Below, piece after piece: positions 5,300 through 19,122 of a stretch of DNA of 34,783 nucleotides. Position 1 is the stretch's first letter; every line of letters starts with the position of its first letter. The position numbers were made by a program, and so were the translations under genes. The notes beneath the pieces were generated by a model that worked only from the letters and a program-made list of their open reading frames with translations, made no database searches and was not told the origin of the DNA. Source of the stretch: a virus; IMG/VR virus record IMGVR_UViG_3300035666_000097, positions 1 to 34,783 of that record; one strand, written 5' to 3'.

Positions 5300-5722
5300 T
5301 CAGATCTGCTTCCCACAGTGCGGGCACAGCTTGGGCGCCTTTGGCTGCTTGATCAGCACCGGAACGCCCAGCCATTCGCAGATCTCGGAGTAGGACTTCC
5401 ATCCGAATCCGGTCACCGAATGCGGGTGCAGGTGGCCCGATGCGTAAAGGCTAAGGGCCTCGCTCTTATCCTTCACCGCCATCCGGTTGAGGACATTGAA
5501 TGTCCGGGTGCTAAACGGCCATCCCCACTGCGCCTGAATTGCTTCCTTGGCCTTGGCCGCCATGGAGATCTGGCTGACCCGCTGCTTGCTCAATCCGAGC
5601 ACCGCACCGATGCGGGTGATTGACTGGCCCTCGGCCCTCATCTGCATCACCTCGGGGATGAGGTGCGCGATCTTGGAGTACTTCTTCTTGGGAGCAGTCA
5701 TAGACTCAGTAGTTGAGGTCAT
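5300..5722 (-). CDS. HTH DNA-binding protein with C-terminal zinc-knuckle-like tail
   Basis: I chose ATG 5722 because AGGA lies 5 bases upstream; ATG 5701, just after the upstream stop, is the alternative. The product has about 140 residues. After a basic start, a helix-turn-helix is clear: LIPEVMQMRAEGQSITRIG, then VLGLSKQRVSQIS, a sigma-region-4-like recognition helix. The C-terminus ends in LCPHCGKQI, half of a zinc ribbon, which would need a partner or dimer. The context among replication genes suggests a regulator or origin-binding factor; this is inference. Confidence 0.7.
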   Translation of the reverse strand: MTSTTESMTAPKKKYSKIAHLIPEVMQMRAEGQSITRIGAVLGLSKQRVSQISMAAKAKEAIQAQWGWPFSTRTFNVLNRMAVKDKSEALSLYASGHLHPHSVTGFGWKSYSEICEWLGVPVLIKQPKAPKLCPHCGKQI

Positions 5723-8275: not shown

Positions 8276-8347
8276 CCTCCTGCACAGCATACCTAGCTCT
8301 GCCACGTTGTGCGGAGTGCTGTCTGATATTGGGGTGTCGCTGATCAT
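8102..8347 (-). CDS. TPRTD-type coiled-coil small protein (copy 3) with Cys/His-rich insert
   Basis: 81 residues, coupled by ATGA overlaps to the resolvase gene upstream and copy 2 downstream. It begins MISDTPISD, continues with the helix RRLERELNAANERIKRLEE, and ends RKAKEAKP. Unlike copy 2, it carries VVDCNHLHHRKKHQHRSGEPC after the helix, a cluster of Cys and His that could bind zinc. The insert may define a specific role; the family's function is unknown. Confidence 0.65.
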   Translation of the reverse strand: MISDTPISDSTPHNVAELGMLCRRLERELNAANERIKRLEEALGCVVVDCNHLHHRKKHQHRSGEPCPVEELIRKAKEAKP

Positions 8348-8799
8348 TTCAGCCCCTCCGCAATCATGGCGTGCTCAAGGATCAGCACAGCGTCCGCGGT
8401 CTTCAGCGTAATCGTCAGCCTCGGCTGCCGTTGCTGCGCGATCTGCTTCAGGTGAGCCTTCCACCGGTCGCCGTGCGTGGCCTTGGTGCCTGCCTGGATC
8501 GTCTTCTGCCATGTTTGAGGCGGCACCTCTATGGTGCGGATCTTCCGGCTGCTGATCATTCCGTGCAGGAAGCCCACATTGCGCCCGAAGTTAAACATGG
8601 CAGACCCGGGAGCGCCCTTTCCGCCCACATATCCGCCCACCTTCTCGATGTAGACCACGTCGGACACACCCAGCCTGTCGAGCACCAGGTCGCGCACATC
8701 GGCGTCGGTGGCAGGCATGGCATCCAGCGTCACACCGCTGGGGCCGTAGTGCGCCAGGCCGCCGGACAGGCCCGGGTCAATTGCAAGGATGCGCTTCAC
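8344..8799 (-). CDS. RuvC-like Holliday junction resolvase
   Basis: 151 residues from GTG 8799, which overlaps the upstream stop as GTGA. The longer in-frame extension would cover a complete ribbon-helix-helix gene and is rejected. RuvC-type catalytic elements are visible: RILAIDPGLSGG with D8, VVYIEKVGG with E52, and the C-terminal KTADAVLILEHA with D136 and an in-phase helix. The enzyme would cut branched DNA during recombination or before packaging. The glycine-rich VGGYVGGKGAPGSAMFNFG segment is characteristic of phage members of the family. Confidence 0.85.
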   Translation of the reverse strand: MKRILAIDPGLSGGLAHYGPSGVTLDAMPATDADVRDLVLDRLGVSDVVYIEKVGGYVGGKGAPGSAMFNFGRNVGFLHGMISSRKIRTIEVPPQTWQKTIQAGTKATHGDRWKAHLKQIAQQRQPRLTITLKTADAVLILEHAMIAEGLK

Positions 8800-8930
8800 T
8801 TGGCAGCCTTTCTCAGCCAGGCAGCGATGGCCTTGTCGGCCACGGCCTGCAGTTTGAGGCCGGCGGCGAGGCAGTAGGCCCGGAGTGCTTTGTGTGTTTC
8901 GGTGGTCACGTTTATGGTCTTTGGTTTCAT
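8796..8930 (-). CDS. Ribbon-helix-helix DNA-binding protein (44 aa)
   Basis: ATG 8930 to TGA 8796 gives 44 residues. A short strand (KTINVTTE), helix (HKALRAYCLAAG), turn, and second helix (LQAVADKAIAAWLRK) are the CopG/Arc ribbon-helix-helix layout. Such proteins bind operators as dimers. It starts five bases after the alpha-CTD-like gene and is GTGA-coupled to the resolvase. A likely candidate to act on the dyad near 10.05 kb or another operator; that link is inference. Confidence 0.65.
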   Translation of the reverse strand: MKPKTINVTTETHKALRAYCLAAGLKLQAVADKAIAAWLRKAAK

Positions 8931-8935
8931 TAAAT

Positions 8936-9274
8936 TCAACCTGCGTCTTCAGTTTCACCTTTTGGCATTACGAACATTATTGAATCAACGGAAGCACACG
9001 AAGGTTTGCCGTGGCTTTTGTTTAACCAATTGTAAACTTCAATATACGCTCCCAACCCGAAACCTCGAATCTCTGACAATTGCCCAGCGCAATAAACATC
9101 AACTAGCTTCCCTACTGTGTTTATGTCATGCGACAATAGGTTGTTTGCTGTTCTTACAGACAATAATGGAAAAATATCAGAAGTAAGTATTCCATCTATC
9201 TTTAGTTTCCCATTCTCGCTGGTCCACGTTTTTCTTGTGTGATACCACTTTGTTAGTACTGTTGGTGTGCTCAT
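8936..9274 (-). CDS. RNA polymerase alpha C-terminal-domain-like protein
   Basis: 112 residues. Residues about 33-88 match the helix-hairpin layout of the bacterial RNA polymerase alpha C-terminal domain: LLSVRTANNLLSHDINTVGKL corresponds to the (L/T)SVRxxNxLxxxxIxTVGxL region, and LSEIRGFGLGAYIEVYNWL to the second hairpin that grips DNA and regulators. There is no alpha N-terminal (assembly) domain. The protein could mimic or bind host alpha-CTD sites to redirect transcription. The gene is markedly AT-richer than its neighbours: the line 9121-9180 has 20 G/C in 60, against 37 in 60 at 9361-9420. This suggests a different origin. The start overlaps the endolysin stop. Confidence 0.65.
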   Translation of the reverse strand: MSTPTVLTKWYHTRKTWTSENGKLKIDGILTSDIFPLLSVRTANNLLSHDINTVGKLVDVYCAGQLSEIRGFGLGAYIEVYNWLNKSHGKPSCASVDSIMFVMPKGETEDAG

Positions 9275-9606
9275 TTCAAATGCTTTTCAACCTTGTTCCA
9301 GTAGGCTTGAGTTGCCGTCTTCTTCTTGTGTCCCTGAGGTCCCGCATTCCATATCCGGGCCTGCTCCTCAGTTGTCTTGCCCTTGCCGTAGTGCTTCAGG
9401 TAGGCCTCGCACACAGCCCGGGCCTGCACCCGGTTGGTCATTTGCTGCCACTGGTAGTTGCTGCCGGTGATCCGGTTCACGTCCAGGACAACAGCCTTGT
9501 GGATCTGGAGGCAGCCAATGGCTCGGCCTTGGTCGCCAATCGCCAGGTCGTTGTTGCTGCTCTCGACCATTATCAGGGCCGAGATGAGATTGGAGATGGT
9601 GGTCAT
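9271..9606 (-). CDS. Lysozyme-like endolysin (lytic transglycosylase fold)
   Basis: 111 residues from ATG 9606, which overlaps the preceding 30-codon ORF as ATGA. The N-terminal helix ISALIMVESSNND carries the catalytic Glu (E15). The next motif, IGCLQIHKAVVLDVNR, is the G-x-L-Q-I signature of lysozyme-like and SLT proteins. The C-terminal ARIWNAGPQG followed by YWNKVEKHL completes the fold. It would cleave peptidoglycan glycan strands for release, or during entry if carried in the virion. There is no signal peptide, so export would need a holin. The holin candidates lie about 19 kb away. Confidence 0.8.
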   Translation of the reverse strand: MTTISNLISALIMVESSNNDLAIGDQGRAIGCLQIHKAVVLDVNRITGSNYQWQQMTNRVQARAVCEAYLKHYGKGKTTEEQARIWNAGPQGHKKKTATQAYWNKVEKHLK

Positions 9607-10561: not shown

Positions 10562-13066
10562 CTATGTCAACGTGACAGATTTCCAAGTTGTTCCGTTGTG
10601 AATGTGCAGGGTGTTGCTGTTGGTGTTGAAGAACATAGGCACATTGGTCCCACTCACGTTGGTCGGCGTGCCCGATGGATTGCTGGATGCTGCCGGGATG
10701 TAGACAAACCCGTCGGTCATCGAGCTGCCGCCAATCGGCCCAATGAAGTCACCGCCCGACTGGCGGTAGCTCGCCCCCTTGATCAGCTTGCCGGTGGCAC
10801 CATCGAACAGAACGAAGTCGCCATCCGTCGCGCTGCCGGGTCCTACCACGTCGCCGGTGCCAGTGCCTGTGGCTGCGATGGTGATCGTGCCGGAGCCGTT
10901 GGTGATGGTGATGTTTGTGCCCGCGGTGAGCTTTGCCCGGGCAAGCGTGCTCCCGATGCTCTTTCCGATGAGCAGGTCGCCGTCGCTGAAGACGTTGGAC
11001 TGGCCTGTGCCGCCGTTGGTCACGGCCAGCGTGCCGGAGACCATCGAGCCCAAGGCAATCAGAGGCAGGTCAATGGCCTGAATGGCCGACATGACGTTGT
11101 TCGTGCCGTTGCCGCGGAGATATGTGCCGTTGGTCGTTGCGCCTGCAAGGAAGTCGATTGCCGACTGCGCCGAGTTGCTGCTGGTTCCGCCATTGGCAAC
11201 CGAGAGCGTACCAGCCAGCGTAATCGTACCCGACGACGTGATCGGGCCGCCGCTAGTGGTCAGGCCTGTCGTACCACCGGACACACTCACAGACGTCACC
11301 GAAGCCCCCGCGGCAATGCCGTCGAGCTTGGTGGCCTGTGCCGAGGTCATGTAGCCGTTCTGCGTGGTCGTAGCCGCCACCTGGCTGATCACCGGGGTGG
11401 TGCTGCCGGTAGCCACCGAGATATTGGCACCGCCCGAAGCCGACACGTTGGTCACGGTGCCGGCATTGGCGGTGTACCCGGCCGGGTTGCTGTTGGGGTA
11501 GGCCCCGAGGCTGGTCAAGGCTCCTGCAGCCGTGGTCGCTCCGGTGCCACCGTTGGCCACATCCAGCGTGCCGGCCAGCGTCAGCGTGCCTGTGGTCGTC
11601 ACAGGGCCGCCCGAAAAGGTTAGGCCTGTCGTACCGCCCGAAGCGTCGACCGACGTCACAGAGCCGGCAGCAGTCGACGACAGCGTGGTGCCTGACATCG
11701 ACAGGCCGGTGCCTAGGCTGATCTCTTGGGCGACCCCAGCACCAGCACCGGCACCGCGGCCCAGTAGTCTCGAGGCGGCCGAGATGTCTTGGATCTTGGC
11801 GTAGGTCACCGCACTGGTGGCGATTGTCTGGGCCGTACCACCGGCAGCCTTGGTGACGTCCCCGGTGAACGCACTGGTCTGGATGCCGCCGGAGCCTGTG
11901 AACTCCACACCGCCGCCGACGGTCAATTCCTCAACAACACCCGTGCCCGAGGTATCGCGGCCTAGGATCTTGTCGGTGGCAATCTGCTGCACCTTGGCGA
12001 AGGTCACCGCATTGTTGGCAATGGTCGCAGCGAAGGACCCCGTGCCAGACCCGGTGACATCCCCGGTCAGCGTGATCGTCTGATCGCCGGTGTTGCTGCC
12101 CGACAGGTTGCTGCCGGTAACCGTGCCCGAGGCAGCCACCGAGGTCGGGGTGATGGCGCCCAGGGATACGGTCAGGTTGGGCGTGCTGGTCGCATTGGTG
12201 ACCGTGCCGCTCACGCCGTTGGCATTGGTGAACCCGAAGGACGTCACCGTGCCGGTGTTCGACGTGTAGCCATTCGGATTCGACGCAGGGTAGGCCCCCA
12301 GGCTCGTCAAGGCAGCCGCCTCGGTGGTTGCACCGGTTCCGCCTGCCGACACGGCTACGACCCCTCCCAGCGTGATTGTGCCGCTGCTGGTGATCGGGCC
12401 ACCCGAGGTCGTCAGGCCGGTCAGGCCGCCGGAGACGTTGACACTGGTCACACCGCCGCCAGTGGGGCCAGCAGGGCCGGCAGGGCCGGTGGGGCCAGCA
12501 GGCCCTTGCGGACCCTGCAGACCGCCGGCACCGAGGGGCTTGGTGGCTCCGGTGTCGAGCCGGGTGATCTCGAGCGTGGTGTAGATCTCGGGCTGCCCGA
12601 CGTTGGCAGCCAGACCCAAGCCGTCAGCATGGCCGCCGCGCTCGCAGTAGTACTCCAGCCGGTAGACGTTGTCCTTGTGCGGCGTGATGCGCAGGTTCAG
12701 GGACACTTCCATGTCCACATTGTTGTTGATGTAGAGCGACGGGCCGTACCCGATGACCACCGAGTTGGTCACGTCGTAGATCCGCAGCCGGGTGCCGCGG
12801 GTGTGGTGGAACGGGGCCAGCACCTTCACCTGGTAATCGCCGGCGGCCACCTTCCACTCGTTGGACGCAAGGTCGATGATCAGGCCATTCGGGTCGCTGC
12901 TGATGGTGTTCAGCGTCCGGGCAGTCCACACAGCGGTCACCGCGGTGCCGCCTGCGACGTTGTTATTCTTTACGTCCTGCAGCACCGCGATCTTGAGCGT
13001 CAACGAGTCGACGTCCTTGCGCAGCTTGTTGATCAGGCTGGTGCTGGTCTGTGAATCGTAGCTCAT
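10562..13066 (-). CDS. Tail fibre protein with Gly-rich repeats and collagen-like stretch
   Basis: 834 residues. It begins with a short coiled coil (about 10-35: INKLRKDVDSLTLKIAVLQDV), which can trimerise a fibre, then a beta-rich N-terminal domain to about residue 180. A G-x-y collagen-like stretch follows (GPQGPAGPTGPAGPAGP, DNA 12453-12514). The rest is built of beta-solenoid-like repeats with SGGTTGLTTSGGP, then NGGTGATT, then TSLGAYP, in three good copies. The C-terminus has a short terminal motif (NTLHIHNGTTWKSV) typical of fibre tips. It would recognise the host. It overlaps the 2019-codon gene as ATGA. Confidence 0.8.
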   Translation of the reverse strand: MSYDSQTSTSLINKLRKDVDSLTLKIAVLQDVKNNNVAGGTAVTAVWTARTLNTISSDPNGLIIDLASNEWKVAAGDYQVKVLAPFHHTRGTRLRIYDVTNSVVIGYGPSLYINNNVDMEVSLNLRITPHKDNVYRLEYYCERGGHADGLGLAANVGQPEIYTTLEITRLDTGATKPLGAGGLQGPQGPAGPTGPAGPAGPTGGGVTSVNVSGGLTGLTTSGGPITSSGTITLGGVVAVSAGGTGATTEAAALTSLGAYPASNPNGYTSNTGTVTSFGFTNANGVSGTVTNATSTPNLTVSLGAITPTSVAASGTVTGSNLSGSNTGDQTITLTGDVTGSGTGSFAATIANNAVTFAKVQQIATDKILGRDTSGTGVVEELTVGGGVEFTGSGGIQTSAFTGDVTKAAGGTAQTIATSAVTYAKIQDISAASRLLGRGAGAGAGVAQEISLGTGLSMSGTTLSSTAAGSVTSVDASGGTTGLTFSGGPVTTTGTLTLAGTLDVANGGTGATTAAGALTSLGAYPNSNPAGYTANAGTVTNVSASGGANISVATGSTTPVISQVAATTTQNGYMTSAQATKLDGIAAGASVTSVSVSGGTTGLTTSGGPITSSGTITLAGTLSVANGGTSSNSAQSAIDFLAGATTNGTYLRGNGTNNVMSAIQAIDLPLIALGSMVSGTLAVTNGGTGQSNVFSDGDLLIGKSIGSTLARAKLTAGTNITITNGSGTITIAATGTGTGDVVGPGSATDGDFVLFDGATGKLIKGASYRQSGGDFIGPIGGSSMTDGFVYIPAASSNPSGTPTNVSGTNVPMFFNTNSNTLHIHNGTTWKSVTLT
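11100..12514. repeat. Repeats within the tail-fibre gene
   Basis: Three copies of a unit encoding (V)SGGxTGLTxSGGP...GTxxLxGTLxVxxGGT lie near 12235-12450, 11430-11665 and 11100-11310. Two of them also share the segment encoding GATT...ALTSLGAYP and SNPxGYT. The collagen-like coding stretch lies at 12453-12514. The similarity is strong enough for recombination between copies, which could change fibre length. Confidence 0.7.
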
Positions 13067-16000
13067 TGCTTAACCTTCTTTCGGATGATGCGTTGCGCCT
13101 CGTCAAGGCTGCTGGCGATGCCGATCAGGCTGCCGGCGGGGCCGTAGAGGCGGAGGGAGCCCTTGGCCTTGCCTGGGAGCGCACGGTAGCCGCCGGTGAA
13201 GCTGTAGGCACCGGGCATGGCGGAGTCGGGGGAGGGCATTAGATCAGCCGGCATATTCCGCACGCTGATTGCCGCCGCAATCTTCTTGGAGGGCACCGCC
13301 CACAGGTTCTCCGGATCGAACCGTTCGATATCGGAAGCCTTCTTCAGCCGGATGGGATCCTCCATGCCGTCGTAGAGCGCACCGTAGAGCCTGTAGCCCT
13401 TTTCAAACAGGTCCATGGCCTCGCGGTGGTCCTTGACGCCGCGGCCAGTAGCCATGTCCGAGGCAGGCATATAGCGCTGGCCCTCAACAGAAGCCCCCTC
13501 GTCCGGTGCTATGCCTTCGTTCCAAGTCCACTCCGGCATGAGCCCGGTCTTCTGATCGGCAAAGACGGTGTCTTCTGTTTTGGCTGTGCGGTTGCGCTCG
13601 CCATACGGGCCGTAGTTCAGCCAACTGTTTTGACCCCGGGTCTCGGTGGTAATGGCTCCACGAGCAGGACCCGTAAAGAGCCGGATGTGCGCCTGCCAGG
13701 CATTCTCCTCGCCTTCCGCCCGGAAACCGGAACCTTCTAGGCCGTGACCGAAAGCGTCGTGCACGGCGCGGAACAAATCGTTGGCATAAACAGGCTTTAA
13801 TTCACCGTTGGGCCCACCGAACGGCCAACGCAAACCAGTATCGGCAAGCATTGGGTTTGATTCTGGATTGAAGTCCTCCTTGGTTCCAAACCCAGAGTCT
13901 GTTGGGAAAACCCCCATCGACTTGTTTGCGCGGAGGTCGCGCATGGCGTTGAACGGAGATGATGCGTACTGCTGCCCCGCATCCGAGTTGCTATCAATGA
14001 ACCAGAACTTGTATCCCGATGAATCAAGCGCTTGATACTGATCCGTGGTTTGGCGGATCAAGTCCTGGTAGGCTTCGCGCACCGCAGGATCTTGCGGTGC
14101 ATGAGGCATCTCCTCGTAGGCCTGAGCAATTCTGCGAGCGCGATCCTCGTCTACCTTAACGTACTCCGATTGGCGACGGAGACCGATTCCTTTGTCCCTG
14201 GCGTACCGCTCTGCGATGCCAACCAGGCTCTGGTCTGGTCCACTAGCGCCTTTGACCTGTGGAGCGCCTGCAAGCGGCGCAAGGTTCCCAGACGTATACC
14301 GTCCTTCTCCTCGGTCTCCACGTCCTCCTCGTTGTTCTGGGGCTTGTTCATAAATTTTTTCTCCTTCGGCAGGCATGAAATACGCTAGACGGGACGGTGA
14401 GTCAATTTGCTTTCGTTTCCATTTCTCGCCTGCCTCCGGCGTGCTTCCGTATCCGGCAACCTTGTTTGCTTTCTGCGCTTCGCCCAATTGACGGTCGTTT
14501 AGGGCAGGCAATTTTTCGAGCCCTGGGAACATGACCTCGTGCGGCTCAACACGTCCCCGAATGCGATCCCAAAGAGTCCACTGGGCAGGGAAGACAGCAA
14601 CGCCAAGCTCGTTTGCCCGGCGTTCGTTGATCTCAAGTGCCGAACGGTAGGAATCCGACATTACCTGGAAGTCTTTTGGAGTCTCAACCCACTCCACCGA
14701 CTTAATGTTCGCCGGAGCATTCGGGTTGATGCCTCCCTTCTTGGCCAGCAGCGTTGCCTTGCGGCTTCCCATAGCAGCAAACACGGCCTCGTTGACGAAC
14801 TTCTGAACGCGATCCGCGCCGTAGATTTCAGCCTGCGCCAGGACATCGTCGATGGTCTTTGCCTTGGTTGCTGTGGGGTCCGGCAAAGAGTCCAGTGTCG
14901 AAGCCATTTCGGCTTTGATCTTGTCGATTTTTTTCTGGTTTTTGGCCTTTAGCGTCTTGAGCGTTTTCGGGTCGTCCTTGTTAATCTCCTCAATGCGCTT
15001 ACCTTTTTCCTCGGCATTTTTGAGCCGGCGATTGAAGGCCGATGTGGCTTCCTTTGACGTCTTCAGCATCGAATTGAAGCGGTCCACAACGATGCCATCG
15101 AAGCGTTTGCGGAGCTCTGGATTTCCAAGCAACTCCTGGCCAAAGATGCGAGCCATGTGGCGGTCCATGGCCGATATGGATGCCTTGAGCGGATCTTGCC
15201 AAACCGACCCGAATGATCCCGTCTTTGTTCCGAACCCTTTGACTTGGGTGGTGAGTTTATCCACAAAGTCGGCCCAGGATTCGTTCGCTCGTTTTACAAA
15301 GAAGTCAGGGTTCTTTGTAAACAATCGAGCGGCATTTACGATGTTTGATATGTCCGCGGTGATTGCAATGCCAAGGCCACCCTTGCCAGCGGAGATGAAC
15401 CCTAGCTCTTTTTTGAGTCGTTGATTCAGCTCCTTCAGGTTTTCTTTAGTAGGATTCTCTGGGTATAGACTGGCAAATTTGCGCACATCTTCCATCGAAC
15501 CAAACCGCAACCGTGCCTGCCCCATTTCATTGGGCAGCAACGGAGCATTCGGGGAGAGCATACCGAAGACAATTGAGTTGAAGCTGGAGACCTTGTCCCC
15601 AGGTGTCGGAGCCATCGTCGACGCCAGCTTGGCTGTCAGCTTGGCGTGCGTGGTCTCTGGCAGGTTTGCTACGTCGACCGGATTGGCTTTGAGCCAGAGG
15701 AGATCGTAGTACGTGAACTTGCCCTCAAGGCCGCCGGGTATTCTCGCAGGATCTCCAGCCACGTCCGAGGGGATGTTTGTGATTTCTGAAAGAGGTCCAA
15801 GGTTTTCGACGCCGAATGCTTTGCCGTATTCCTCAAACTCCTTTGGAGTCCAGTCTTTCGGTTCTTTGCCTTTGAAGTAGATGTTTCCATTTTGATCCCT
15901 TGAAACTCCTGGAGCTTCAAAAGATGCACGCCGGGGAAGACCTTCCGCAACTTGTTTTCTGGCCGCCTCCTCTTCAGCCGGCATGAACCTCACATCCCCC

Positions 16001-19000
16001 GCTTGTCGAACCGTCCCGCCTTGGCCTTGGCCTTCTTGGCCACGCTCAATGCGATTGCGACCGCCTGCTTCTGCGGTTTGCCGGACTTCATTTCGCGGGA
16101 GACGTTGCTGCTGATCGACTTCTGGCTGTAGCCTTGCTTGAGTGGCATCTGCTTTCCTTTCTGCTTGGGTTTGGGTGTCGTAGATTCCGATGAGCTTCCC
16201 ATCGGGACCGTAGAGCTTGTGCTTGGCACCGCTGATGATGCGGTAGCCCTCATCGGAGTTGATGATCGACTTGTCGCCGATGGTCTCGGCGGGCATCCAG
16301 CGGAGCTTGGACTTCTGGATTGCGTCCTCGGAGATACGAGCTCGGAAGTCCATCGGTGCCGTCGACCCGATACGGTCCAGGCGGAAGTCGCGCACGAACT
16401 TGCGGCCGCCCTTCTCCTGCTCGTTCACGAAGTCACCGAGGAAGCGGGCCTTGTCGACTCCGAAGATCTCCGCAGACCGGCGTGCGCCCTCACCAGCGTC
16501 CAGGTTGGTGAAGTAGGCGGCCAAGTCAGACATGAACCCGTCGACGTTGTCCCACAGGCCTGCAGCCACTCCCCCATCGGGAGCAGTCAGCTTGTCCAAA
16601 GCACCGCGGATCTTGCTGATGTCGATAGCCTTGATGACCGGGTTGTCGGCCTTGGACAGATAGAAGCTATACGGCAGCACCTCACGCTGGGAGAGGCGGA
16701 TGCCGCTGTTGTACTTGCTGGTGAACTTGCCAGTCAGCCGGTTCTTCACCCGCTTGGTCGCAGCACCGTAGTTTAGGAAGATGCTGTTGCCGGCATCCAT
16801 GGCTGCATTTACAGCCCGAATCTTGTCCTTCATCCGGCTGCTGACTGCCTGAGACTGCTCAATGGCTGACAACTGCTGCGGGCTGAACCGACCCAAGATC
16901 TCACCATCGACCACGCGGGCCCCAGAAATGCCTTCCAGGATCGTCCTGATTGCGGCGGTGTCCTTCTCCTCACGGACTCGGATCTCTTCGTCTGAGAGGT
17001 TCCTGACACTGCCGTCAGGCATCTGCTCTGCCACACCGAGATCGACCAACTGCTTTGCGGCAATCGGGTTGGAGACATCCTGCGGCTTCAGCACCTTGCC
17101 GGGTCCCTCGTTCTCAATCGTGATGCGCTCATCCAGCTTGCGACGGGCACGCAACAGGTCGCGCAGCATGGCGTTCACCTGCGGAGAAGCCTGCTTCAGG
17201 TCAGGGAACAGCACCGAGTCGGTTGGTTTGACTCCGAAGGTGCGCTCAATGGTTGCAGCGGCATCGGCTAAAGCCCGACTGGCATTCTGGGTCAGTGCGG
17301 AGTCGAGCAACTGCCTAGTGATACCTGAGAAGCCCTTTAGCAATGCATCAGGCTTCTGACCGGCTAGGAGTCCAGCGAAGTGTTCCGCAGCCAGCTCCGA
17401 GGCCACATAGCCAGCTTTCTTGTCGATGGTGTCGTACTGGGCGAGCTGGTCGGCACGCTCCTGACTGCCTGCGGCCAGCTTGTCTCGGTACTGATTGAAA
17501 CGGGCCTCAATCTCGGCGTCATTGAAAGCGCCCTCGGCCAGCTTACGGATGACATCGCCTTCCTGCACCCACCGTCCAACAAGCGAATCCTTGATCTCGG
17601 TGGCGCCGCCCTCCAATTGGGTGGTCTTCTCTAAGGCATGGAAAAGCTCATGTCCGAGAGTGTAAAGAGGGCCGTCGCCGGTGCCTTTTCCAATAATGTC
17701 GGCGTTGATGAATATGGTGGGGCGCTCTGCCAACTCAACCTGCACACCACGGATTTTGTCGCCAAACTTTTCGGCCATTTGCGCGTTGGAGCGATAGAGG
17801 ATGTCAACATCCCCAAACTTGCCACGGACCAGTCCCTGCAGATCCATCAGTGCTGAGGCAGCATTAACACCATGCTGATCACGCACCCGCTCAAACAGCG
17901 CCTTGGTCGTAGGATCCTGCTGTGAGTCAATGAATCGCCCGAGGTCTCCTGCACGGGCTTCCGCGGCAGCTTTGCCAGTGAGCTTCTGGTAGGCACGGCC
18001 ACCGATAGCACCGGCAGCGCCCTGCACACCGCCAGCACCTAAGCCTGCAGCGGCCCCCTCTTCGCCTCCGGACAAATAGCCCAAGCCTGTACCAATCACT
18101 CCACCTTCAATACCTCCGGCAAGCCCCCTGAGTGAGGCATCCAAGGCAGCGTCACCGCCGTACTGCCCGACCACACCGAGCATCCGTTGGCGCAGATTAG
18201 CACCTGGGGCAGCACCGATGGCCTCTAGAGGACCAATCCGGGAGGGCTGGGTCATCAGGTTCTCGCCGGCACGGGTCAGGGCCTCGCCGGCTTCTCGAGC
18301 AGTACGAATACCTGCGGGGATGGCAGCGAAGGCAGCAGCCTCCGGAGCAATTCCAAGAGCGCCGGCAACACCGGCTGTGGAAGCAGCGGTGCGAAGCGCT
18401 TCTGGCGTCATTCCAAGCGCTTCCGCTGTCATACGCTCGGCAGCACCTGCGAAGCGCTCAAGAGGCCTTGCAGCGCCAGCAACGGCACGCCCGGTGAGTT
18501 GAGCGCCTTTACCGACAGCACGGGTAGCGAGCTTACCTGCACCAATGATCTCGCCGATACCAGGCAACGCCAGCGTCGGGTCAAGGATCATAGACACACC
18601 CTGAACGAACTCCGGGTTGGTGTACTCGGGAGGGACGACAATACCTTCCTCGCCACGCTCAAGGCGGGCGCTGGTGTTGGCGAAGTCTCGAGCCTCAAGA
18701 AACTGGTTGTAGCGGGACTCCGCGGTGCCTGTGCCTGCGACAAGGTCCTTGAACTTGAAGAGCGGTGACGATGGATCCTGAGACTGAGCAGCAAGCCCGT
18801 AGAGCTGGCGAGTGCCTTGAGCAAATCCCTCAATGTAGTTCAGAGGGTTTGCTGCAGCACCTTGAGCGCCTTGAGAAACCGCGCCACTGATCATTCCAAT
18901 GGCAGCATCTGCGGCTTGAGCGGCGGTGTTTATCCAGTCGGTCTGTTTGGTCTTTGCGTACTCCTCGTACTTTAGGTAGTCTTCCTGCGTTGGCGTGAAA

Positions 19001-19122
19001 GCAGGGTCCTGCATTGCCAGCGAGATGTCCTCCCCGGTGATCGGAGCATCCAGCAGGCTCTCGACGCTGTCTGCTGGTTCTGGACCGAACAACAAGTCGA
19101 TGTCTGCTTTGGATAGGGTCAT
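13063..19122 (-). CDS. Giant modular internal virion/polyvalent protein (2019 aa)
   Basis: The N-terminal 430 residues are Ala/Gly-rich helices with hydrophobic Gly runs, as in phage ejection proteins that cross the envelope. HELFH at 491-495 follows LYTLG, a zinc-metallopeptidase-type site. About 740-942 is a conserved-looking domain with LNYGAATKRV. M-P-A occurs at 943, 1047, 1583, 1885 and 1957, usually after an aromatic residue (W, F, F, Y; N at the last), and divides the C-terminal half into segments. Y971-G-P and Y1993-G-P begin two copies of a YGPxGxLIGI module. H1788-D-A-F-G-H1793, with EENAWQ and TETRGQNSWLNYGP after it, resembles a domain found in large phage polyvalent proteins. 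A coiled coil lies near 1380-1430. Roles are inferred. It is ATGA-coupled to both neighbours. Confidence 0.75.
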   Translation of the reverse strand: MTLSKADIDLLFGPEPADSVESLLDAPITGEDISLAMQDPAFTPTQEDYLKYEEYAKTKQTDWINTAAQAADAAIGMISGAVSQGAQGAAANPLNYIEGFAQGTRQLYGLAAQSQDPSSPLFKFKDLVAGTGTAESRYNQFLEARDFANTSARLERGEEGIVVPPEYTNPEFVQGVSMILDPTLALPGIGEIIGAGKLATRAVGKGAQLTGRAVAGAARPLERFAGAAERMTAEALGMTPEALRTAASTAGVAGALGIAPEAAAFAAIPAGIRTAREAGEALTRAGENLMTQPSRIGPLEAIGAAPGANLRQRMLGVVGQYGGDAALDASLRGLAGGIEGGVIGTGLGYLSGGEEGAAAGLGAGGVQGAAGAIGGRAYQKLTGKAAAEARAGDLGRFIDSQQDPTTKALFERVRDQHGVNAASALMDLQGLVRGKFGDVDILYRSNAQMAEKFGDKIRGVQVELAERPTIFINADIIGKGTGDGPLYTLGHELFHALEKTTQLEGGATEIKDSLVGRWVQEGDVIRKLAEGAFNDAEIEARFNQYRDKLAAGSQERADQLAQYDTIDKKAGYVASELAAEHFAGLLAGQKPDALLKGFSGITRQLLDSALTQNASRALADAAATIERTFGVKPTDSVLFPDLKQASPQVNAMLRDLLRARRKLDERITIENEGPGKVLKPQDVSNPIAAKQLVDLGVAEQMPDGSVRNLSDEEIRVREEKDTAAIRTILEGISGARVVDGEILGRFSPQQLSAIEQSQAVSSRMKDKIRAVNAAMDAGNSIFLNYGAATKRVKNRLTGKFTSKYNSGIRLSQREVLPYSFYLSKADNPVIKAIDISKIRGALDKLTAPDGGVAAGLWDNVDGFMSDLAAYFTNLDAGEGARRSAEIFGVDKARFLGDFVNEQEKGGRKFVRDFRLDRIGSTAPMDFRARISEDAIQKSKLRWMPAETIGDKSIINSDEGYRIISGAKHKLYGPDGKLIGIYDTQTQAERKADATQARLQPEVDQQQRLPRNEVRQTAEAGGRNRIERGQEGQGQGGTVRQAGDVRFMPAEEEAARKQVAEGLPRRASFEAPGVSRDQNGNIYFKGKEPKDWTPKEFEEYGKAFGVENLGPLSEITNIPSDVAGDPARIPGGLEGKFTYYDLLWLKANPVDVANLPETTHAKLTAKLASTMAPTPGDKVSSFNSIVFGMLSPNAPLLPNEMGQARLRFGSMEDVRKFASLYPENPTKENLKELNQRLKKELGFISAGKGGLGIAITADISNIVNAARLFTKNPDFFVKRANESWADFVDKLTTQVKGFGTKTGSFGSVWQDPLKASISAMDRHMARIFGQELLGNPELRKRFDGIVVDRFNSMLKTSKEATSAFNRRLKNAEEKGKRIEEINKDDPKTLKTLKAKNQKKIDKIKAEMASTLDSLPDPTATKAKTIDDVLAQAEIYGADRVQKFVNEAVFAAMGSRKATLLAKKGGINPNAPANIKSVEWVETPKDFQVMSDSYRSALEINERRANELGVAVFPAQWTLWDRIRGRVEPHEVMFPGLEKLPALNDRQLGEAQKANKVAGYGSTPEAGEKWKRKQIDSPSRLAYFMPAEGEKIYEQAPEQRGGRGDRGEGRYTSGNLAPLAGAPQVKGASGPDQSLVGIAERYARDKGIGLRRQSEYVKVDEDRARRIAQAYEEMPHAPQDPAVREAYQDLIRQTTDQYQALDSSGYKFWFIDSNSDAGQQYASSPFNAMRDLRANKSMGVFPTDSGFGTKEDFNPESNPMLADTGLRWPFGGPNGELKPVYANDLFRAVHDAFGHGLEGSGFRAEGEENAWQAHIRLFTGPARGAITTETRGQNSWLNYGPYGERNRTAKTEDTVFADQKTGLMPEWTWNEGIAPDEGASVEGQRYMPASDMATGRGVKDHREAMDLFEKGYRLYGALYDGMEDPIRLKKASDIERFDPENLWAVPSKKIAAAISVRNMPADLMPSPDSAMPGAYSFTGGYRALPGKAKGSLRLYGPAGSLIGIASSLDEAQRIIRKKVKQ
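15990..16148 (-). CDS. DUF6496-like small protein nested out of frame in the 2019-codon gene
   Basis: ATG 16148 to TGA 15990 encodes 52 residues beginning MPLKQGYSQKSISSNV, then GKPQKQAVAIALSVAKKAKAKAG, ending FDKRGM. This is the layout of a known small basic phage protein family (DUF6496 as I recall it: MPL-x-KG-S, then G-x-PQKQAxAIAL-x-A-x-K). AAAGGA lies 6 bases before the ATG, the best ribosome binding site I saw in the window. The frame is shifted by one relative to the large gene and overlaps its residues about 992-1045, a low-complexity Gln/Arg/Glu/Gly linker. The function of the family is unknown; the basic helix suggests nucleic-acid contact. Confidence 0.75.
   Translation of the reverse strand: MPLKQGYSQKSISSNVSREMKSGKPQKQAVAIALSVAKKAKAKAGRFDKRGM

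Follow-up and report, generated by a model that had tools for sequence, protein, structure and literature searches.

The window (the whole stretch of viral DNA analysed, 34,783 nucleotides) carries at 8936-9274, on the minus strand, an open reading frame that begins with ATG, runs without an internal stop and encodes a protein of 112 amino acids. Its recognizable part is a domain resembling the C-terminal domain of the RNA polymerase alpha subunit (alpha-CTD) at residues 36-88 (approximately 9011-9169), which includes the segments LLSVRTANNLLSHDINTVGKL (residues 37-57) and LSEIRGFGLGAYIEV (residues 66-80). The first 33 residues were modelled by AlphaFold as low-confidence beta strands, and the C terminus forms an acidic tail. 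In six separate records this frame stays open; a long reading frame on the opposite strand (8890-9186, plus), antisense to it, was not accepted as a gene. With a GC content of 0.404, against 0.589 for the whole window, the gene is the lowest-GC stretch of 339 nucleotides in the entire window, and its GC at third codon positions is 0.363, compared with about 0.73-0.85 in the larger genes sampled. The preliminary description, which had pointed to this AT-richness (20 G/C of 60 at 9121-9180, or 0.333), was thus right. Elsewhere in the window, a 2019-residue protein (13063-19122, minus) has almost no family matches; its residues 1780-1838 match phrog_3170 (unknown function). Among the proteins scanned no RNA polymerase of the phage's own was found, the record being possibly partial.

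The genes around the site run on the minus strand. Upstream lies an SLT/lysozyme-like gene (9271-9606, minus), the stop codon of which overlaps the start of the alpha-CTD-like gene in the sequence ATGA. The downstream border is a 44-residue ribbon-helix-helix (RHH)/ParG-like reading frame (8796-8930, minus; Pfam gives only a weak match to ParG, E=0.13), followed by a RuvC-like Holliday junction resolvase (8344-8799, minus; phrog_1770, E=5.5e-21). In 13 related contigs the lysozyme-like stop overlaps the RHH-like start directly, again as ATGA, which leaves the site empty. The window has the alpha-CTD-like gene exactly inside this stop/start junction, with its own start in an ATGA overlap. Other relatives hold different genes at the same junction: a protein with two CxxC motifs (L009 and L035), an unknown reading frame (L025), a ParB-like protein of 260 residues (phrog_5931; L026 and L027) or a GC-rich insert of 1.5 kb (L031-L034). 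The junction (8930-9274 in the window) is therefore a hot spot for cargo, and we call the alpha-CTD-like gene the cargo gene. Four of the five other cargo types at the junction have a GC content of 0.37-0.42, so AT-richness is common to much of the cargo and does not indicate one donor. Like a moron, the cargo gene is an extra gene absent from relatives (the 13 empty loci) and atypical in composition. A simple consensus scan of its strand, however, found neither a sigma-70-like promoter nor a terminator of its own; the gene is coupled through the stop/start overlap instead.

Six phages carry the cargo gene at 99-100% identity, though their flanking genes differ. Between the window and the five other records, dS is 0-0.03 (0-0.027) for the cargo gene, as against 0.35-0.62 for the lysozyme-like gene, 0.13-0.92 for the RHH-like gene and 0.13-1.20 for RuvC. 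The simplest reading of these sequence comparisons is a recent exchange of the cargo gene among related phages; extreme nucleotide constraint is a more remote explanation of its low dS. The empty sites in 13 relatives, together with near-zero dS across divergent flanks, bear out the earlier suggestion that the gene was recently gained.

Pfam RNA_pol_A_CTD (PF03118) is the sole Pfam family that matches the 112-residue protein above noise (E=3.8e-5), with a score of 23.8 bits that equals the gathering cut-off exactly; membership is borderline, because a near-identical R-to-Q variant in other phages scores 22.5 bits, just under that cut-off. NCBIfam RpoA models match the same region, at their CTD positions only, and no PHROG family matched the protein. 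Against an alpha-CTD profile that we built from bacterial RpoA CTDs, the protein scored 20.3 bits, whereas the best of 1000 shuffled sequences scored 3.8 bits, which places the resemblance in sequence beyond chance. A single hhalign comparison with RpoA CTDs gave a probability of 93%. AlphaFold predicted the helices of an alpha-CTD, with pLDDT of about 76-82 over the domain and a modest mean of 63.5 for the whole model. When this model was compared with the PDB by Foldseek, ranks 1-9 were all RNA polymerase alpha-CTDs (probabilities 0.84-1.00), among them that of S. coelicolor (1.1 Å over 49 columns, 37% identity, probability 1.00); all E-values exceeded 0.1, as is to be expected of so short a domain (about 50 residues). 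A helix-hairpin-helix (HhH) domain of the repair type fitted far less well, both by sequence (Pfam HHH_5, E=0.2) and by fold (a RAD51C complex, the best of these at probability 0.30, and Hel308 ranked under all nine alpha-CTDs). Profile matches and predicted fold together confirm the assignment of residues 36-88 to the alpha-CTD type of HhH domain. Only about 33 residues precede it, and no alpha N-terminal assembly/dimerization domain was found in the protein. The preliminary description had proposed just such a stand-alone domain, to be given up if the predicted fold was not HhH or grouped with repair proteins; since alpha-CTDs fill the first nine ranks ahead of repair proteins, the proposal withstood this comparison.

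In E. coli alpha, residues D259 and E261 contact sigma, and the contacts to the UP element comprise, besides R265 and N268, residues C269, G296, K298, S299 and E302. R265 and N268 touch the backbone and the minor groove of DNA (PMC11434276); at UP elements, R265 has a crucial part (PMC2988021). In our alignment four of these seven DNA-contact positions are kept (R265, N268, G296 and E302 as R41, N44, G73 and E79) and three are changed (C269 to N45, K298 to G75 and S299 to A76). With these changes, and being neutral (pI 6.9), the domain may bind DNA weakly or in an altered manner. The cargo protein thus shares with the RpoA CTD the HhH fold, the LSVR.AN.L motif and the equivalents of R265, N268, G296 and E302, but differs from it in lacking the assembly domain, in a one-residue insertion, at C269, K298 and S299, and in the sigma-contact residues, D259 and E261 being unmatched. 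The idea that a phage-made alpha-CTD could take the place of the host domain is not supported in the form in which it was put: without an assembly domain and tether, the protein cannot replace that domain within RNA polymerase, nor are the residues that contact sigma kept.

The closest relatives of the cargo protein that we found are, by sequence, not host RpoA but a conserved phage family with a second alpha-CTD-like gene in the same window (5300-5698, minus). Proteins of this family combine a helix-turn-helix (HTH) of the sigma region 4/ParB type, an alpha-CTD-like domain and a tail with the motif CPHCGK. We found 122 loci on more than 120 contigs (including 5300-5698 and L045-L124, L130-L132, L134-L139, L141, L142, L146 and L185) and no representative in the isolated phages searched. 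An exonuclease gene follows in all 93 loci examined, and an SSB-like gene precedes in 89 of the 93. For the HTH, HTH_23 and Sigma70_r4 both scored below cut-off in the window copy, and Sigma70_r4 reached 30.9 bits, above cut-off, in the copies of L029 and L016; the HTH of P1 ParB is likewise similar, and in whole-protein Foldseek searches the HTHs of ParB/VirB proteins and of sigma region 4 dominated the matches. The alpha-CTD-like part gave a weak Pfam score (E=0.036 in L029; unreported in the window copy and L016) and a 94.8% hhalign probability against RpoA CTDs, and the equivalents of R265, N268, G296, S299 and E302 are invariant in all 21 aligned members. The cargo protein is homologous to this family: hhalign gave 95%, the pairwise score was the best among the sequences compared, and the two are 31-45% identical over the domain, with RT.N, Y..G, GFG, E and WL in common. 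Unlike the cargo protein, family members have the N-terminal HTH, the C-terminal zinc-knuckle-like tail and a conserved genome position.

These matches bear on the donor, which the preliminary description had hoped to find by codon and phylogeny comparison. A host rpoA gene is probably not the source, the best pairwise score going to the phage family, above every RpoA compared. One cyanobacterial alpha-CTD ranked third, over 48 residues, too few for a tree. A peptide-pattern search of 84,980 genomes found no close relative of the whole 112-residue protein, and tblastn against isolated phages and plasmids gave no significant match. In viral contigs, the pattern GFG-x3-[YF]-x-E-[IVM]-x2-W-[LF] recovered, besides a few chance matches, nothing but the known copies and members of the fused family; in genomes it recovered the fused family only in one contig of a Verrucomicrobiota bin (L185), and a search of 388 Verrucomicrobiota genomes added one weak partial match only. 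With a single bin contig and that one match, Verrucomicrobiota are weakly hinted at as hosts of the phage group. Small or unusual alpha-CTD-like frames also occur elsewhere: a stand-alone one of 74 residues in a more distant phage contig (L039, 1468-1692, minus; PF03118, 28.3 bits), a 458-residue frame with two adjacent alpha-CTD domains in one Planctomycetia genome (L205/L208) and, in Mucilaginibacter, an 85-residue alpha-CTD/HhH-like frame in addition to rpoA (L206).

Similar viral proteins have already been annotated, and the cargo protein is a further member of a known, unstudied kind; a search of the open-access literature with a few term combinations found no tested function for alpha-CTD-like phage proteins. 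Three proteins of uncultured Caudovirales (A0A6J7WD60, A0A6J5L490 and A0A6J5M7I6; 'RNA polymerase, alpha subunit, C-terminal'; 131-135 residues) match the cargo protein in fold but are only 21-31% identical to it. An alpha-CTD domain is also present in Microbacterium phage Mazun gp26, Bacillus phage Goe8 c00050 and Ruegeria phage V16 gp23, which, unlike the cargo protein, are larger and have the domain joined to other sequence. In V16 gp23 (L125, 1432-2298) the domain is N-terminal in a protein annotated in one record as a pyrophosphatase, an unusual fusion.

How might such a protein act? We propose that the product of the promoterless accessory gene is a small protein of the alpha-CTD fold that binds DNA, and that the gene would be translated through coupling to the upstream lysozyme-like gene. 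The protein would use R41, N44, G73 and E79 to bind AT-rich DNA in the minor groove; binding of AT-rich DNA we consider probable. Rather than becoming part of RNA polymerase, it would occupy AT-rich sites upstream of promoters and compete there with the host alpha-CTD or, alternatively, with the HTH-alpha-CTD protein of its own phage or of a rival, thereby shifting transcription. We hold this full account, from binding to competition at promoter-upstream sites, tentatively, at slightly less than even confidence.

The bacterial alpha-CTD is a hub for protein interactions as well as a DNA-binding domain, and phages are known to attack it by modifying the domain, cleaving alpha or blocking the domain. 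The targeting of alpha-CTD is exemplified by T4 Alt/ModA (PMC2988021) and by gp67 of S. aureus phage G1 (PMC4495994). Such precedents, as well as the partial retention of DNA-contact positions in a neutral domain, would suit a decoy that binds host activators, sigma region 4 or further partners of the alpha-CTD and so keeps them from RNA polymerase, with no need to bind DNA. We consider this unlikely, given that the best-kept residues, in the cargo protein and its fused relatives alike, are those that touch DNA, and that the sigma-contact acids D259 and E261 have no match. Partners might instead be sought among the phages: the cargo protein could compete or pair with the HTH-alpha-CTD protein, handicapping co-infecting relatives or tuning the carrier's own programme. 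Both genes occur in the same phage, the fused family is the closest relative found, and the cargo gene occupies a swappable site and has spread recently; such interference, with a hypothetical common binding site or interaction at its base, seems to us quite unlikely.

A role outside transcription, as a generic HhH DNA-binding protein that aids replication or recombination, would be in keeping with the RuvC gene nearby and with the position of the fused relative, which in nearly all loci has an SSB-like gene on one side and an exonuclease gene on the other. But repair HhH proteins were far worse matches in both sequence and fold, and adjacency to RuvC belongs to the cargo site rather than to the alpha-CTD gene, which makes this role rather improbable. 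That the gene is a useless passenger, recently acquired and unselected, we find hardly credible: it is known from six records only, with too few substitutions for a test of selection, yet the frame has stayed open and nearly identical in six phages whose flanks have diverged, and the stop/start overlap couples it precisely.

For a phage to make its own alpha-CTD-like protein would be a different route from the known attacks on alpha-CTD, and the small size of the protein (112 residues) makes testing easy. The HTH-alpha-CTD family, with more than 120 contigs and no described function, is a candidate conserved transcription regulator, and the cargo site, with its empty, alpha-CTD, two-CxxC and ParB-like states, is a place to seek other genes for host takeover or against phages. 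In a bolder picture, which we offer as speculation and think distinctly improbable as a whole, the free-standing alpha-CTD would be a mobile competitor exchanged within a phage group that also has a conserved HTH-alpha-CTD regulator, and would rewire the transcription of hosts or rival phages by occupying AT-rich DNA upstream of promoters.
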